Shown here in pieces: positions 48,748-54,900 of a DNA stretch of 64,000 nucleotides (positions within the stretch are counted from its first letter, which is position 1; every line of letters begins with the position of its first letter). Source of the DNA: Brevibacillus laterosporus (GTDB lineage Bacteria; Bacillota; Bacilli; Brevibacillales; Brevibacillaceae); assembly GCA_007833815.1 (NCBI GenBank), contig CP033464.1, forward strand, positions 4,210,001 to 4,274,000, in the 5' to 3' direction. The notes under the pieces are model-generated. The model saw only the letters and a list, made by a program, of their open reading frames with translations, searched no databases and was not told the DNA's origin. Made by a program: the position numbers and the translations under genes.

Positions 48748-49728
48748 CTAGTTGGCATGAATGACAACAGGTTCTGCTAAATGCCAGTACCTGCTGGCAA
48801 TACATAATTCTGGCTCATACTCAGGATGGCCCTTAATCTCTAGTTCTTCCACGCATCTGCCTGTCTTGGGGGCATGAATCATACGGGTACCTCCAAGGGA
48901 GATAGCTACGTGATGAACAGCGCCCTTCCCTTGATCATAAGCAAAAAACAGCAAATCTCCCGGCTGTGCCTGGTCAAGCGGTACCTCCAAGCCAAATCTA
49001 GCCTGATTGGAAGCATCGCGCGGAATAATTTTACCAAATGCTTTGTGCATCGAGTAGGCAAATCCAGAACAATCATAGCCAAAAGAAGAGGCTCCAGCCC
49101 ACAGATAGGGCAAACCAAGAAATTGCTTACCTGCTTGCACAATGAGCTCTCCAGACACATCAACTTTCTCATTACGTTTACGGATGGCAACATCTGCTTG
49201 TTTCAGCCATCGATCTCCGATTGGTGTTAGTACTCGTACCCACATATCTTCTTGTTCGACGACAGGCAGTGCAGTTAAATAGCTTAATTCTACCCCTATT
49301 GCTTTATCACCAACGTCTTTGCTAGTACATGTCTTTTCAACATACATATGCGCTTTGCTCACTTGTACGATAGCAATTAACTCATCTGGTGTAGGTATAG
49401 GCCAATTAACAAGGGCTAGTTGATTACGCGGCATCCAACCAGGATAACCATTCTCATTTTTTAGAGAAGGCTGATCACTAACGAGCACTTTGATCCAAGC
49501 TTCGGTCTCTTCTTCTACTTGAACAATCGTTCCAAACAATATCTGCGTCTGTGTTTTGTTTGTGTCACATAATTCCAATCGCTCATTATAACCAAGAACA
49601 CTCAACCACTCAGGAAGTTTAGTAGGATTTTGCAAGGCAAGCTGATCCAACTCACGTGGTGAATCAGGAGATGTCCAAAGAGTTGCTACATTTACACTTA
49701 CGACATACTGCTGTTCGCTTTTACTCAT
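48748..49728 (-). CDS. ykfC: YkfC-like gamma-D-glutamyl-L-diamino acid endopeptidase
   Basis: This 326-residue C40 peptidase has two SH3-like regions (about 5-105 and 110-200) and a C-terminal NlpC/P60 domain. The catalytic Cys is in GYDCSGFAYSMHKAF and the His in HHVAISLGG. This matches YkfC, which cuts L-Ala-gamma-D-Glu from diaminopimelate in imported murein peptides. There is no signal peptide, which fits a cytoplasmic role. The ATG overlaps the ykfB stop (ATGA), and GGAGG sits inside the end of ykfB. Confidence 0.93.
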   Translation of the reverse strand: MSKSEQQYVVSVNVATLWTSPDSPRELDQLALQNPTKLPEWLSVLGYNERLELCDTNKTQTQILFGTIVQVEEETEAWIKVLVSDQPSLKNENGYPGWMPRNQLALVNWPIPTPDELIAIVQVSKAHMYVEKTCTSKDVGDKAIGVELSYLTALPVVEQEDMWVRVLTPIGDRWLKQADVAIRKRNEKVDVSGELIVQAGKQFLGLPYLWAGASSFGYDCSGFAYSMHKAFGKIIPRDASNQARFGLEVPLDQAQPGDLLFFAYDQGKGAVHHVAISLGGTRMIHAPKTGRCVEELEIKGHPEYEPELCIASRYWHLAEPVVIHAN

Positions 49729-50816
49729 GTTGGTTCTACCTCCAATACATCTGTAATGCCTAATCCAGGAGCATCGGTTACTTTCATCAAGCGCCCCTCA
49801 TAAATGACGCCACCTTTAACTGTATCATGCTGTAGCATCAATGGCGCATCAAAGTCAAAACGGGTAATATTTTTCTTACTTGCAGCAAAATGAGCTGCCG
49901 CAGTAATTCCTAATCTGGTTTCAATCATACTACCCACCATGCACTCCACACCGCATAACTCAGCCAATTGATTAATCTGTTGGGCTTTGTAGATGCCGCC
50001 GGCTTTCATTAATTTGATATTGATCAAATCTGCGGCTCGTTTTGTTAGTACTTCGTAAGCTTGCAAGGGACCAAACACACTTTCATCAGCCATGATTAGT
50101 GTATCCACATGGTCCGTGACCATCTTTAGACCCTCAATATCATGCGCTTTAACTGGCTGTTCTACTAATTCAATACCCAATCCCATCTCTTCCATTTTGC
50201 GAATGGAGTAGATCGCCTCCTTAGCTCCCCAACCTTGATTAGCATCCAGTCTAATTTTTACTTGTTTGCCGACACGGTTGCGAATTTCCTGAATACGAAT
50301 GATATCATTTTCAATCTTATCTTTACCTACCTTAATTTTAAGTGTATCAAATCCCGCTTGCAAATAGGCAACAGCGTCTTCTCCCATCTCTTGAGGCGAG
50401 TTTACACTGACCGTATAATCGGTCTCCATACTGTTGCGATATCCTCCTAAAAACTGATACAACGGCATTTGGGCTTTTTGTGATACTAAATCGTAAATAG
50501 CCATATCTACTGCGGCTTTGGCACTGTTGTTACCCACAATGCAACCATGCAACGTATGAAAGATATCTTCATAGTTAGACAAAGATTTTCCGACTAATTG
50601 GGGACGAATAATACACAAGATAGCGCCCTCAATGCTATCGAGACTATCACCAGTGATGACCACAGTTGCAGGAGCTTCACCAAAGCCATGCCATCCATTA
50701 TCAGTCGTCACTTTTACAATGATCGATTCTGAAGTAATCACCGTTCTCAAGGCTGTTTTAAAAGGTTTAATCAGCGGCACAAATTGCCGTTTGATCTCTA
50801 TGTCAGTAATAATCAT
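49725..50816 (-). CDS. ykfB: L-Ala-D/L-Glu epimerase (YkfB)
   Basis: This 363-residue enolase-superfamily enzyme turns L-Ala-D-Glu into L-Ala-L-Glu, so that murein dipeptides can be cleaved by ordinary peptidases. It follows B. subtilis YkfB closely, with the catalytic Lys pair in LKIKVGKD and NIKLMKAGG and the metal-binding Asp/Glu/Asp in LDANQGW, LVEQP and MADESVF. TALRTV near the start is also shared. A strong GGAGG precedes the ATG. It lies 102 bases after an ABC permease gene and overlaps ykfC by four bases. Confidence 0.94.
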   Translation of the reverse strand: MIITDIEIKRQFVPLIKPFKTALRTVITSESIIVKVTTDNGWHGFGEAPATVVITGDSLDSIEGAILCIIRPQLVGKSLSNYEDIFHTLHGCIVGNNSAKAAVDMAIYDLVSQKAQMPLYQFLGGYRNSMETDYTVSVNSPQEMGEDAVAYLQAGFDTLKIKVGKDKIENDIIRIQEIRNRVGKQVKIRLDANQGWGAKEAIYSIRKMEEMGLGIELVEQPVKAHDIEGLKMVTDHVDTLIMADESVFGPLQAYEVLTKRAADLINIKLMKAGGIYKAQQINQLAELCGVECMVGSMIETRLGITAAAHFAASKKNITRFDFDAPLMLQHDTVKGGVIYEGRLMKVTDAPGLGITDVLEVEPT

Positions 50817-50880
50817 GAGAAACCTCCAGTTGTTAGAATTATGGAATACTTCAGTAAATTACACGTTAATTAATATCCGT

Positions 50881-50889
50881 AGTATACCA
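50881..50889 (-). promoter_or_regulatory. Possible extended -10 promoter of ykfB
   Basis: On the minus strand TGGTATACT (50889-50881) fits the extended -10 TGnTATAAT with one mismatch. It lies in the gap between the ABC permease and ykfB. If active it would let ykfBC escape the upstream riboswitch. Confidence 0.35.
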
Positions 50890-50918
50890 AAATTCCCTGG
50901 GTTCGCCCATCCAAAACC

Positions 50919-51920
50919 TTATTGAGAACGATGTCTCAACTGATAGTAGGTAGCTGACAATGCCAAAATTAACACTGTACCCTTTACAATATCATGTGCG
51001 TAATAAGGTAAATTCAGCATCGTCAAAGCATTCAAGAGTACACCAATCAATACAGCACCTACAAAAGTCCCCCCGACATTTGGTTTACCTGCGCCTAACA
51101 CGGAGTATCCCACAAAGGCTGCTGCGACGGCATCCATTAATAGAGGAGCGCCTCCATCCACTTGACCTGTACCGATACGCGCTGTCATCAGAACCCCGGC
51201 CAATCCACAAAAGAGTCCAGATAACAGATAAGCTAACACTCGATAGCGATCAACCGGAATCCCCGACAGACGAGCCGCTTCTCGGTTGCCACCAATCGCA
51301 TAGAGCAATCGTCCGTAACGCGTGTAATGTAGAAAAATATACACCAACACCACAGCTACTATCATGATGATAACGGCGATCGGAATGTTAGCAATTGTTC
51401 CTTGTCCAATTTTTAAAAAGGTCGGGGAAATCGTGCCTGGTGCTGTCGTCTGATCTGGCATCACCATTTTAGAAGTAATGGAGTAACCTTTCGTATAGAC
51501 CAGATGAATTCCTTTCACAATGTAGAGAGCTGCTAACGTTGCTAACAAGTCAGGAATTCTAACTTTTACTACAAGATATGCATTGAACAATCCAATGAGA
51601 CCACCAACCAGTATCGGTACCAAGACAGCGAGCCAAATGCTTTGTTCAAACCAAACCATAATGGATGCCGACACGACGGAAGCTAATGATACGATAGATC
51701 CTACTGACATATCAAAGCCATTTACAATTAAAGTAAAAGTGACCCCGATAGCTACCAATGTAACGATAGATATAGAATGTAAGATGCCTGTGATATTGTT
51801 GAACGTGAAAAAATACTCATTTACAATGCTAAAAAAAATGATAATGAACGCAATAAATCCTAACGTTCCATATCGAAAAAGGATGTGCAAGAGTTTTTCT
51901 TTACCTGTTTCTTGTGCCAT
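50919..51920 (-). CDS. CUT2-type sugar/nucleoside ABC permease
   Basis: This 333-residue RbsC-like permease has about nine or ten membrane helices and the EAA-like loop YAIGGNREAARLSGIPVDRY that docks to the ATPase. VNGFDMSVGSIVSLAS near the N-terminus is typical of ribose/galactose permeases. It is encoded just after its ATPase (2 bases apart) and binding protein. The transported compound is unknown. Regulation by the S-box upstream points to a sulfur-related ligand such as a methylthio-sugar or nucleoside. Confidence 0.92.
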   Translation of the reverse strand: MAQETGKEKLLHILFRYGTLGFIAFIIIFFSIVNEYFFTFNNITGILHSISIVTLVAIGVTFTLIVNGFDMSVGSIVSLASVVSASIMVWFEQSIWLAVLVPILVGGLIGLFNAYLVVKVRIPDLLATLAALYIVKGIHLVYTKGYSITSKMVMPDQTTAPGTISPTFLKIGQGTIANIPIAVIIMIVAVVLVYIFLHYTRYGRLLYAIGGNREAARLSGIPVDRYRVLAYLLSGLFCGLAGVLMTARIGTGQVDGGAPLLMDAVAAAFVGYSVLGAGKPNVGGTFVGAVLIGVLLNALTMLNLPYYAHDIVKGTVLILALSATYYQLRHRSQ

Positions 51921-51922
51921 TG

Positions 51923-53461
51923 TTACTGTCCTCCGCTCGCGTAGTACATGATGGTTTCCTGTGTTGCTTCTGCTCGGCTAAGTTCTTTAACAAAGGCTCC
52001 GTCGTACATAACTAAAATACGATCAGCAATCCCTACTATCTCGTCGAACTCACTAGAAAGGTACACTACCCCTTTCCCATTTTTAGCTAGCTCTCCAATA
52101 ATTTTATAAATTTCCGATTTGGCTCCTATGTCTACACCCTTCGTGGGTTCGTCAAACAGAAAGATGTCAGATTCAGTTGCTACCCATTTTCCAATAACTA
52201 CTTTTTGCTGATTTCCTCCACTTAACGAACCGATGGACATCTGAGGGTTAGCCACCTTGATCTGTAATTTTTGAATTAGCTTTTCCACAGCTTCATTTAC
52301 TAACATAGGGCGTAAGAAACCGAGTCGACTATAATTTTGAAGTGTTGGCAAAGTTAAATTAGCTGCTACTGATTCTTCTATAACAATACCTTCTTTTCGA
52401 CGCTCTTCAGGAACCAATACAATTCCTTGATCAACGGCTGCTTTTGGCGATGTACATTTCACCTTTTGCCCCCTCTTGTACACTTCTCCCGATGCCAGTG
52501 GATCAGCACCAAATAATACTCGGGCTAATTCTGTTTTCCCTGCACCAACTAAGCCTGCAATTCCTACAATTTCTCCTTCATGTACTGTAAAGGAAAGGTT
52601 TCGTACATATGAGCCAGCCTGTATATTTTTTACTTCAAGCAGCTGATCCCCTATTTTGACTTGTTCTTTTGGGTATTCATGGGTCAGTGTTTTTCCCAGC
52701 ATACTTGTAATGATTTCGTGCGGGTTCGTTTCTTCTGTTCGCTTGCTCAAAATCTGTTCGCCATCTCGTAGCACCGTAATTCGATCGCTAATTTCAAACA
52801 CTTCTGGCAATCTGTGTGAGATAAATACAATACCGATCCCTTGCTCACGTAATTGCTTAATGATGTGGAACAACTGCACAGTTTCTGCTTGACTTAAGGG
52901 TGCAGTCGGTTCATCTAGCACAATTATTTTGGCTTTTTGTGCCAAAGCCTTTGCCAATAGAACCAACTGCTTTTCCGATAGAGTTAGTTCCTCTACCTTT
53001 TTTTGAATCGGTAAGTCAAGGCCCAAACGTTTCAGTGCTTTTGTTGCTTCCTCCGCTAAACTTCGCCAGTTGATAAAAGGAGAGCGTCTCCCTCCAACAA
53101 ATCCTTCTAGCATAATGTTCTCTGCAACACTTACGTATCCAATGAGAGCTGTATCTACTTCCTGATACACACACTGGATTCCATGAGCTTTGGCATCTTG
53201 TGGTTGTGTCAGATTAACTTCCTTTCCATCTACGAAAATCTGACCTGCGTCTAGCTCATAAGCACCTGTCATAATTTTCATTAATGTACTCTTTCCTGCT
53301 CCATTCGCCCCCAACAAAGCATGAATTTCACCAGGCTTTACATCAAAATCTACACCGCGTAAAGCCGGAACAGAGCGAAATGCTTTTTTGATTCCCTTCA
53401 TTTCTAATGCTGTCAACGTGCTCTCCCCTTCCATGCGCGGATTGTACAAGAGGTCTGGCAT
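51923..53461 (-). CDS. CUT2-type ABC ATPase (RbsA/MglA-like)
   Basis: This double ATPase of about 512 residues has two ABC cassettes. The first has Walker A LLGANGAGKSTLMKI, signature LTLSEKQLVLL and Walker B IIVLDEPTAPL. The second has a degenerate Walker A (AGLVGAGKTELAR), signature SLSGGNQQKVVI and Walker B IFLFDEPTKGVD. This is the layout of ribose/galactose importers. The start is unsure: ATG at 53461 is given, with 53434 possible. Neither has an ideal site; GAGGGGG lies 13 bases before the first. Confidence 0.9.
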   Translation of the reverse strand: MPDLLYNPRMEGESTLTALEMKGIKKAFRSVPALRGVDFDVKPGEIHALLGANGAGKSTLMKIMTGAYELDAGQIFVDGKEVNLTQPQDAKAHGIQCVYQEVDTALIGYVSVAENIMLEGFVGGRRSPFINWRSLAEEATKALKRLGLDLPIQKKVEELTLSEKQLVLLAKALAQKAKIIVLDEPTAPLSQAETVQLFHIIKQLREQGIGIVFISHRLPEVFEISDRITVLRDGEQILSKRTEETNPHEIITSMLGKTLTHEYPKEQVKIGDQLLEVKNIQAGSYVRNLSFTVHEGEIVGIAGLVGAGKTELARVLFGADPLASGEVYKRGQKVKCTSPKAAVDQGIVLVPEERRKEGIVIEESVAANLTLPTLQNYSRLGFLRPMLVNEAVEKLIQKLQIKVANPQMSIGSLSGGNQQKVVIGKWVATESDIFLFDEPTKGVDIGAKSEIYKIIGELAKNGKGVVYLSSEFDEIVGIADRILVMYDGAFVKELSRAEATQETIMYYASGGQ

Positions 53462-53495
53462 CTTATCTGCCAAACCCCCTCACACTAAACCCTTT

Positions 53496-54575
53496 CTATT
53501 GGCCTTGCGTACTAGTGCCCCACTCTTTCACGTACTTTTTCAAATCAGCCATTTTCACTGGCTCTTTAGGCAATTGTTCACGTGTGACTAATACAGGGTT
53601 TAAGCTTACTTTATCGGGTACTTGCTCACCGTTAAGCTTTTTAAACAAGTAACGTGCCTGTACCCGTCCAATATCAGAAGGGTCTACGGCTGCCGTTGCA
53701 ACCCAAGGTGATGTCTGATCTTGAATCATCTGTAAATCTTCATCACTCATATCGATGCCATATACCTTAATTTCATTGCGGCCTGCTTGTTGAATTGCAC
53801 GAGTTGCCCCTTTTGCAAATTCATCCCAAGCAGTCCAAACGGCTGTAATATCCCCCTTATTGGGATGTTGCTTTAAGATTGCTTCCATTTGTGCTTGTGT
53901 ATCCAGAGCCGTATTTGCAGACGCCGAGCCAAATGCAGCAATTTCTTTCAAGCCCGGGTTTTTGTCCATAAATGCTTTATAAGCGATTTGGCGCCGTTCC
54001 ATTGGAGTGAAACCGGCTACCCAAATCTTCACAATATTTCCTTTACCACCTACATCTTCTGACATTTTGTTTAATGTTTGTTCAGCCAACTTGATATCAT
54101 CTTGCTCTACCACCGTTACTCCTGGAACATCTAACCCTGTATCAAAAGCAACAATTGGTGTTTTTTGGACCAATGCTTTTTGAACACCTGGTGTCAAGCT
54201 ATCTGCTCGACCATGGTCTAGTAGAATGCCATCAAATTGTTGCGTAACTGCCGCGTCCAAATGTGAAGCCATTTTAGCAAGATCATTATCCCCACTCAAC
54301 ACGGTCAATTCTCCACCTAGCTTCTCCACTTCTTCTTTCACGCCAGCAATATATTGAGAAGAGAATGACCCGATATTAAATTGCACCACCAACGCAATTC
54401 TCTTTTTCTTTTCCGTTGTAGGTTGATTCCCTTTCGCTTCACTACCTGATGCTGTCACATTATCTGTTGGCGTTGCTTTTGTTGTGGATGCTGTCCCACA
54501 ACCACTTAGTACGCTCCCTAATAAAAAGAAAATTGCGAATAAATAAACAACTGTTTTGTTGATTGTACCCCTCAT
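53496..54575 (-). CDS. Sugar-type ABC substrate-binding lipoprotein
   Basis: This 359-residue lipoprotein starts with a signal peptide and lipobox (LSGC, Cys about residue 26). A periplasmic-binding-protein type 1 fold (peripla_BP_4) follows: RIALVVQFNIGSFSSQYIAG, FDGILLDHGRADS, AFDTGLDVPGV and KVYGIDMSDEDL. It is the binding subunit of the CUT2-type importer encoded next. GGGGAGAG precedes the ATG. Its leader is a SAM-I riboswitch, an unusual control for this transporter class. The ligand may be a methylated thio-sugar, but that is a guess. Confidence 0.92.
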   Translation of the reverse strand: MRGTINKTVVYLFAIFFLLGSVLSGCGTASTTKATPTDNVTASGSEAKGNQPTTEKKKRIALVVQFNIGSFSSQYIAGVKEEVEKLGGELTVLSGDNDLAKMASHLDAAVTQQFDGILLDHGRADSLTPGVQKALVQKTPIVAFDTGLDVPGVTVVEQDDIKLAEQTLNKMSEDVGGKGNIVKIWVAGFTPMERRQIAYKAFMDKNPGLKEIAAFGSASANTALDTQAQMEAILKQHPNKGDITAVWTAWDEFAKGATRAIQQAGRNEIKVYGIDMSDEDLQMIQDQTSPWVATAAVDPSDIGRVQARYLFKKLNGEQVPDKVSLNPVLVTREQLPKEPVKMADLKKYVKEWGTSTQGQ

Positions 54576-54667
54576 ATGTCTCTCCCCTTTTTACAATTTC
54601 TCTGTTGTGTGTGCAAAAATGTACAGTATGCGGCGGATCACTGAGCTGTGTACTACACGATGCAAAA

Positions 54668-54696
54668 AAGCCCCTTTTCCTAAGGAAAAGAGGCTT
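54668..54696 (-). terminator. Intrinsic terminator of the S-box leader
   Basis: Arms at 54668-54680 and 54684-54696 pair with one mismatch (AAGCC and CTTTTCC blocks). Six T follow on the minus strand. It is the expression platform of the riboswitch. Confidence 0.85.
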
Positions 54697-54832
54697 GTGT
54701 ACATGAAGACCCACTACGCCTCTTATCTCTCAGGTTTCCCTGCAGGAGGTAGCACCTTGATGTCTTGTCATACAGACATTAGGTTGCCGGGCGTCATCGG
54801 GCCAGTCCCTCAGCCAACTCTTGATAAGAGAG
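54697..54832 (-). ncRNA. SAM-I (S-box) riboswitch
   Basis: The minus strand holds the S-box core. P1 arms CTCTTATC and GATAAGAG (54830-54823 with 54727-54720) enclose a conserved GAGGGA then CTGGCCC, GATGA, the GGCAACC of P2/P3 (54788-54782) and AAGGTGCTA then CCTGCAG. A terminator follows before the binding-protein gene. High SAM would end transcription, and low SAM would allow the ABC importer to be made. The order and spacing of motifs are those of SAM-I aptamers, so I am confident in the class. Confidence 0.93.
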
Positions 54833-54900
54833 TATTTTAAATTTTGTAACGTTTTTCTTAAGACAGATATTACACCTGTGGCCTAAACGATGTCAATAAC

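Follow-up and report, generated by a model that had tools for sequence, protein, structure and literature searches.

A SAM-I riboswitch in front of a probable methylthioribose importer and neighboring ykfBC genes in Brevibacillus laterosporus

We analyzed a window of 64,000 nucleotides from Brevibacillus laterosporus (assembly GCA_007833815.1, contig CP033464.1, positions 4,210,001 to 4,274,000), in which an S-adenosylmethionine (SAM)-I riboswitch (S-box) and a terminator are followed on the minus strand by genes encoding the binding protein, the ATPase, and the permease of a CUT2-type ABC importer and then by ykfB and ykfC. The importer is very probably a SAM-switched importer of methylthioribose (MTR) in methionine salvage, and ykfBC are its neighbors, probably transcribed from their own promoter, with some read-through from the importer possible. 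RNA family, gene identities, conservation, co-occurrence, and predicted fold were computed in this analysis. A SAM-controlled MTR importer is conserved and has already been predicted and is therefore not new; what is added here is comparative support, from 299 sampled genomes of the class, for assigning this importer family to MTR.

The riboswitch and the importer

A preliminary description of this locus, made from the sequence alone, had placed a SAM-I riboswitch before a CUT2-type importer followed by ykfBC and had proposed a covariance search with RF00162. That arrangement was confirmed by RF00162, by the Pfam and NCBIfam families of the importer genes, and by matches of the two Ykf proteins to 1jpm and 3h41. 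The aptamer was found at 54830-54720 on the minus strand (76.4 bits, E = 3.6e-16, gathering score 44.4), matching the model over its full length (positions 1-108 of 108), and is one of 10 SAM-I riboswitches in the whole genome; with its full aptamer and terminator, it shows no unusual feature relative to the known class. The intrinsic terminator (54668-54696, minus strand) is a 13-pair hairpin with a T run and is the sole site in our scan with more than 6 pairs, the number of sites in the scan (4, against 5.5 expected in shuffles) being within chance. By complementarity, GCCTCTT in the 5' arm of this hairpin and AAGAGGC at the 3' end of P1 can form an antiterminator of 7 bp. Of 37 leaders given, 35 have a terminator arm, and 31 of these 35 allow a pairing of at least 6 bp; shuffled arms get to 6 bp in 39% of trials. 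The predicted expression platform consists of a terminator and a competing antiterminator. A putative sigma-A-type promoter of the importer operon (54867-54896, minus strand; TTGACA-18-TAATAT, 10/12 consensus matches) is a candidate only, as the scan listed 22 sites versus 16.5 ± 3.6 in shuffles. Minimum-energy folding of the full leader (z = −3.6) does not reproduce the aptamer and was set aside as evidence.

The binding protein (53496-54575, minus strand) is a CUT2-type lipoprotein that we predict to be of the MTR-binding type. By its predicted structure, it is closest to a solved MTR transporter binding protein, Thermotoga TLET_1677 (4ry8, titled as a 5-methylthioribose transporter solute binding protein), which is its best match in a tie with a Yersinia relative, 5ulb. 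The likeness to the Thermotoga protein is one of fold; MTR is reportedly bound in the 4ry8 crystal. The double ATPase (51923-53473, minus strand) has two Pfam ABC_tran stretches and scores best, though below every cut-off, with the NCBIfam models for xylose, arabinose, and ribose ATPases. The permease (50919-51920, minus strand) belongs to Pfam BPD_transp_2.

We propose that when SAM is plentiful, it would bind the leader and hold P1, so that the terminator would form and transcription would halt before reaching the importer; at low SAM, the terminator's 5' arm would instead be paired with the 3' strand of P1, and the importer would be expressed. The lipoprotein would then catch MTR outside the cell, the ATPase-permease complex would carry it inside, and MtnK, MtnA, and MtnWXBD, which are encoded elsewhere in the genome, would convert it back towards methionine. 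In this scheme, YkfB and YkfC would be ordinary murein-peptide enzymes whose genes, in the B. laterosporus group, came to follow those of the importer.

Evidence for the substrate and competing explanations

The preliminary description had suggested MTR as a possible substrate for methionine salvage, and this assignment finds good support in the structure match, in co-occurrence with mtnK, in the mtn gene clusters of relatives, and in the S-box found in most of the family. Among the sampled genomes, mtnK is present in 85 of the 86 that carry this binding protein, a co-occurrence that ignores the relatedness of the genomes, and in 38 of the 86 no more than 10 kb separates the two. The importer adjoins salvage genes at 6 of the 80 named importer loci, and all of these are mtn genes; the closest binding protein among the named loci, 89% identical, is itself from Brevibacillus laterosporus. 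The genome studied here encodes mtnW, mtnX, and mtnB (each above its NCBIfam cut-off) behind a single S-box, mtnK (556 bits) about 0.7 kb behind a divergent S-box, and mtnA (457 bits) at another site.

Several points weigh against the reading as a SAM-switched MTR importer, besides the frequency of chance pairing in the antiterminator test and the relatedness left out of the co-occurrence count. Foldseek puts 5ulb ahead of 4ry8, and the title of 5ulb names no ligand. In this genome, the importer stands away from the mtn genes; the putative mtnD, the next gene after mtnW, mtnX, and mtnB, was named by eye and had no NCBIfam match at 1e-25; and a 240-amino-acid reading frame between the S-box and mtnK had no Pfam match. 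At the family level, mtnK occurs in 40 of 40 genomes, whereas the importer is missing in 4 of the 40, so mtnK cannot explain the genomes without the importer. According to PMC5743806, MTR influx in B. subtilis is assigned to another protein, MtrA (YfnA). Finally, 56 of the 80 named loci (54 from Paenibacillus, 1 from Gordonibacillus, and 1 from a metagenome genome) have no S-box in the stretch examined.

If the importer instead carried ordinary ribose or another common pentose, the S-box would be incidental. Membership of the CUT2 family, and a permease and an ATPase whose nearest models are those for ribose, xylose, and arabinose, would fit such a role. However, the binding protein scores 63 bits against the RbsB model (cut-off 337), versus 378.7 bits for another protein of the genome, and both the top structural matches (4ry8 and 5ulb) and the co-occurrence with mtnK speak against it; we regard this explanation as highly improbable. 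An importer mainly for 5-deoxyribose, a by-product of radical-SAM enzymes, or for 5-deoxyribose together with MTR, has a better claim and still appears unlikely. Disposal clusters for 5-deoxyribose that contain putative sugar transporters have been published (PMC6079011), and mtnA of this genome (locus L209, contig C4 of genome G000, near position 4014054) is separate from the remaining mtn genes; its neighbors, a class II aldolase gene and a divergent regulator gene that is DeoR-like by eye, give a layout resembling those clusters. However, the importer lies outside the mtnA-aldolase cluster and under its own S-box, and the salvage genes adjoining the importer in relatives are the mtn genes mentioned above (the aldolase was not searched for there). 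We retain MTR as the probable ligand; the boundaries of the operon are likewise predicted.

In PMC3228920, a probable MTR importer is described as first identified in B. cereus, where it has an S-box, and as functionally uncharacterized as of 2011; the same source refers to an earlier B. cereus study for the importer. It is named MtrACB there and mtnXYZ in PMC4239095, and the text available from PMC2211319 names no MTR importer. Like the system in the first two of these sources, the importer described here is a sugar-type ABC importer that co-occurs with mtn genes and has an S-box; unlike it, this importer is encoded away from the mtn genes, under an S-box of its own, with ykfBC behind. We take MtnABC to be a further name for the same probable importer, whose first prediction reportedly goes back to Rodionov in 2004 (NAR).

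Control of the importer in relatives

An S-box model partly derived from the loci's own S-boxes detects the riboswitch at 33 of the 37 importer loci in 36 family genomes; of the four misses, L059 and L064 have short upstream stretches, and L079 and L080 lack an S-box. RF00162 itself matches at 11 of 11 importer loci in one set and 9 of 11 in another. At the 80 named loci, the S-box is directly upstream in 19, precedes a mtnK-mtnA-importer row in 2, and is absent from the 56 mentioned above, with 3 stretches being too short; likewise, RF00162 gave no match at 7 Paenibacillus importer loci. SAM control is thus not universal for this importer, and its control differs by lineage: Brevibacillus and several Bacillus-like genera carry an S-box, and none was found in Paenibacillus. 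A response to SAM is predicted for the importer of B. laterosporus.

In Paenibacillus, an inverted repeat, CCNANTAANNNNNTNGG, recurs upstream of the start codon of the binding-protein gene at importer loci that lack an S-box (e.g., L136, L162, and L176). With at most one mismatch, it occurs at 31 of 33 loci tested (of the 54), versus 0.88 expected in base shuffles, the pattern having been taken from the same loci on which it was tested. It resembles a CymR-type sulfur operator. The control had 8 sites of a related pattern and the L136 genome 12, two of the latter preceding genes that are cysJ-like and sulfonate-binding-like by eye. At L079 (genome G036), a second mtnK, the importer without an S-box, a 2-hydroxyacid dehydrogenase-like gene, and mtnW form one row. 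Gene cluster c3, found upstream of many family importers, was considered as mtnK and rejected, as it reads by eye as a sensor histidine kinase.

Position and control of ykfBC

The ykfB gene (49725-50816, minus strand) encodes a protein matching the B. subtilis L-Ala-D/L-Glu epimerase 1jpm with 501.6 bits, and ykfC (48748-49728, minus strand; 3h41, 241.6 bits) overlaps it by 4 bases. The range given in the preliminary description, 49725-54832, holds for the riboswitch, the importer, and ykfB, but nearly all of ykfC falls outside it. Both proteins closely resemble the B. subtilis and B. cereus enzymes of known structure. Unlike the murein-peptide operon dpp-ykfA-ykfB-ykfC-dppF, the locus has no ykfA-like or Dpp-like neighbor among the window reading frames between 44000 and 60000, which were read partly by eye.

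On present evidence, the link between ykfBC and the importer is positional, and gene order in relatives indicates that ykfB is probably a neighbor rather than a part of the SAM-switched system. It is doubtful that, in the B. laterosporus group, control by the riboswitch extends past the importer to ykfBC, so that low SAM would raise wall-peptide use together with MTR uptake; if true, such read-through would couple methionine status with wall recycling in an unusual way. Improbable, too, is a single SAM-controlled operon from the importer to ykfBC, through which low methionine would raise both activities and couple sulfur metabolism to murein recycling. Such an operon would fit the shared strand, the gap of 102 bases between permease and ykfB, and the direct adjacency of the two genes in 4 of 6 genus genomes (our own, G003, G004, and G005). 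A terminator scan of the gap found no terminator-like site, so read-through into ykfB is possible. However, the gene-order survey that the preliminary description had recommended found ykfB near the importer at only 5 of the 37 family importer loci, all in one genus, and at 2 of the 80 named loci, both in Brevibacillus. In B. dissolubilis (G002), a glutathione peroxidase (gpx)-like gene (top NCBIfam match below its cut-off), a tRNA gene, and a probable terminator, recognized by eye as a hairpin plus T run, separate the importer from ykfBC; in the sister genome G001, ykfBC occupy the same site, with the same upstream neighbor (a gene for a branched-chain-type binding protein), without importer or S-box. 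Moreover, no S-box was present at the 9 ykfB loci fetched out of the 30 that lie away from the importer in the family. The survey thus gives no support to the earlier suggestion that methionine status is tied to the use of wall peptides, and our literature search on S-box control of ykfB, judged by titles and abstract openings, found no paper on the subject.

The preliminary description had also noted a weak extra promoter before ykfB. This may be the extended -10 element TGGTATACT (50881-50889, minus strand), for which the evidence is weak: a TGnTATACT element stands before ykfB in the window, L045, L046, L047, and the importer-less G001 (L120, in the version TGTTATACT), a sharing that argues against a single operon, but it is not found in L048, and our consensus promoter scan did not list the site at 50889-50881. 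The folded stretch before ykfB is ordinary (z = −1.0).

Among six of the nine fetched ykfB loci, whose neighbors were read by eye, none of the genes seen at L123 and L126 was Dpp-like, one Dpp-like gene follows ykfBC in L122, and Dpp-like genes surround ykfBC in L121, L124, and L127. Another S-box of this genome (L084, G000:C4:4937957-4948056) precedes an operon for an oligopeptide importer, named Opp-like from NCBIfam matches below cut-off, which is followed by an amidohydrolase gene.
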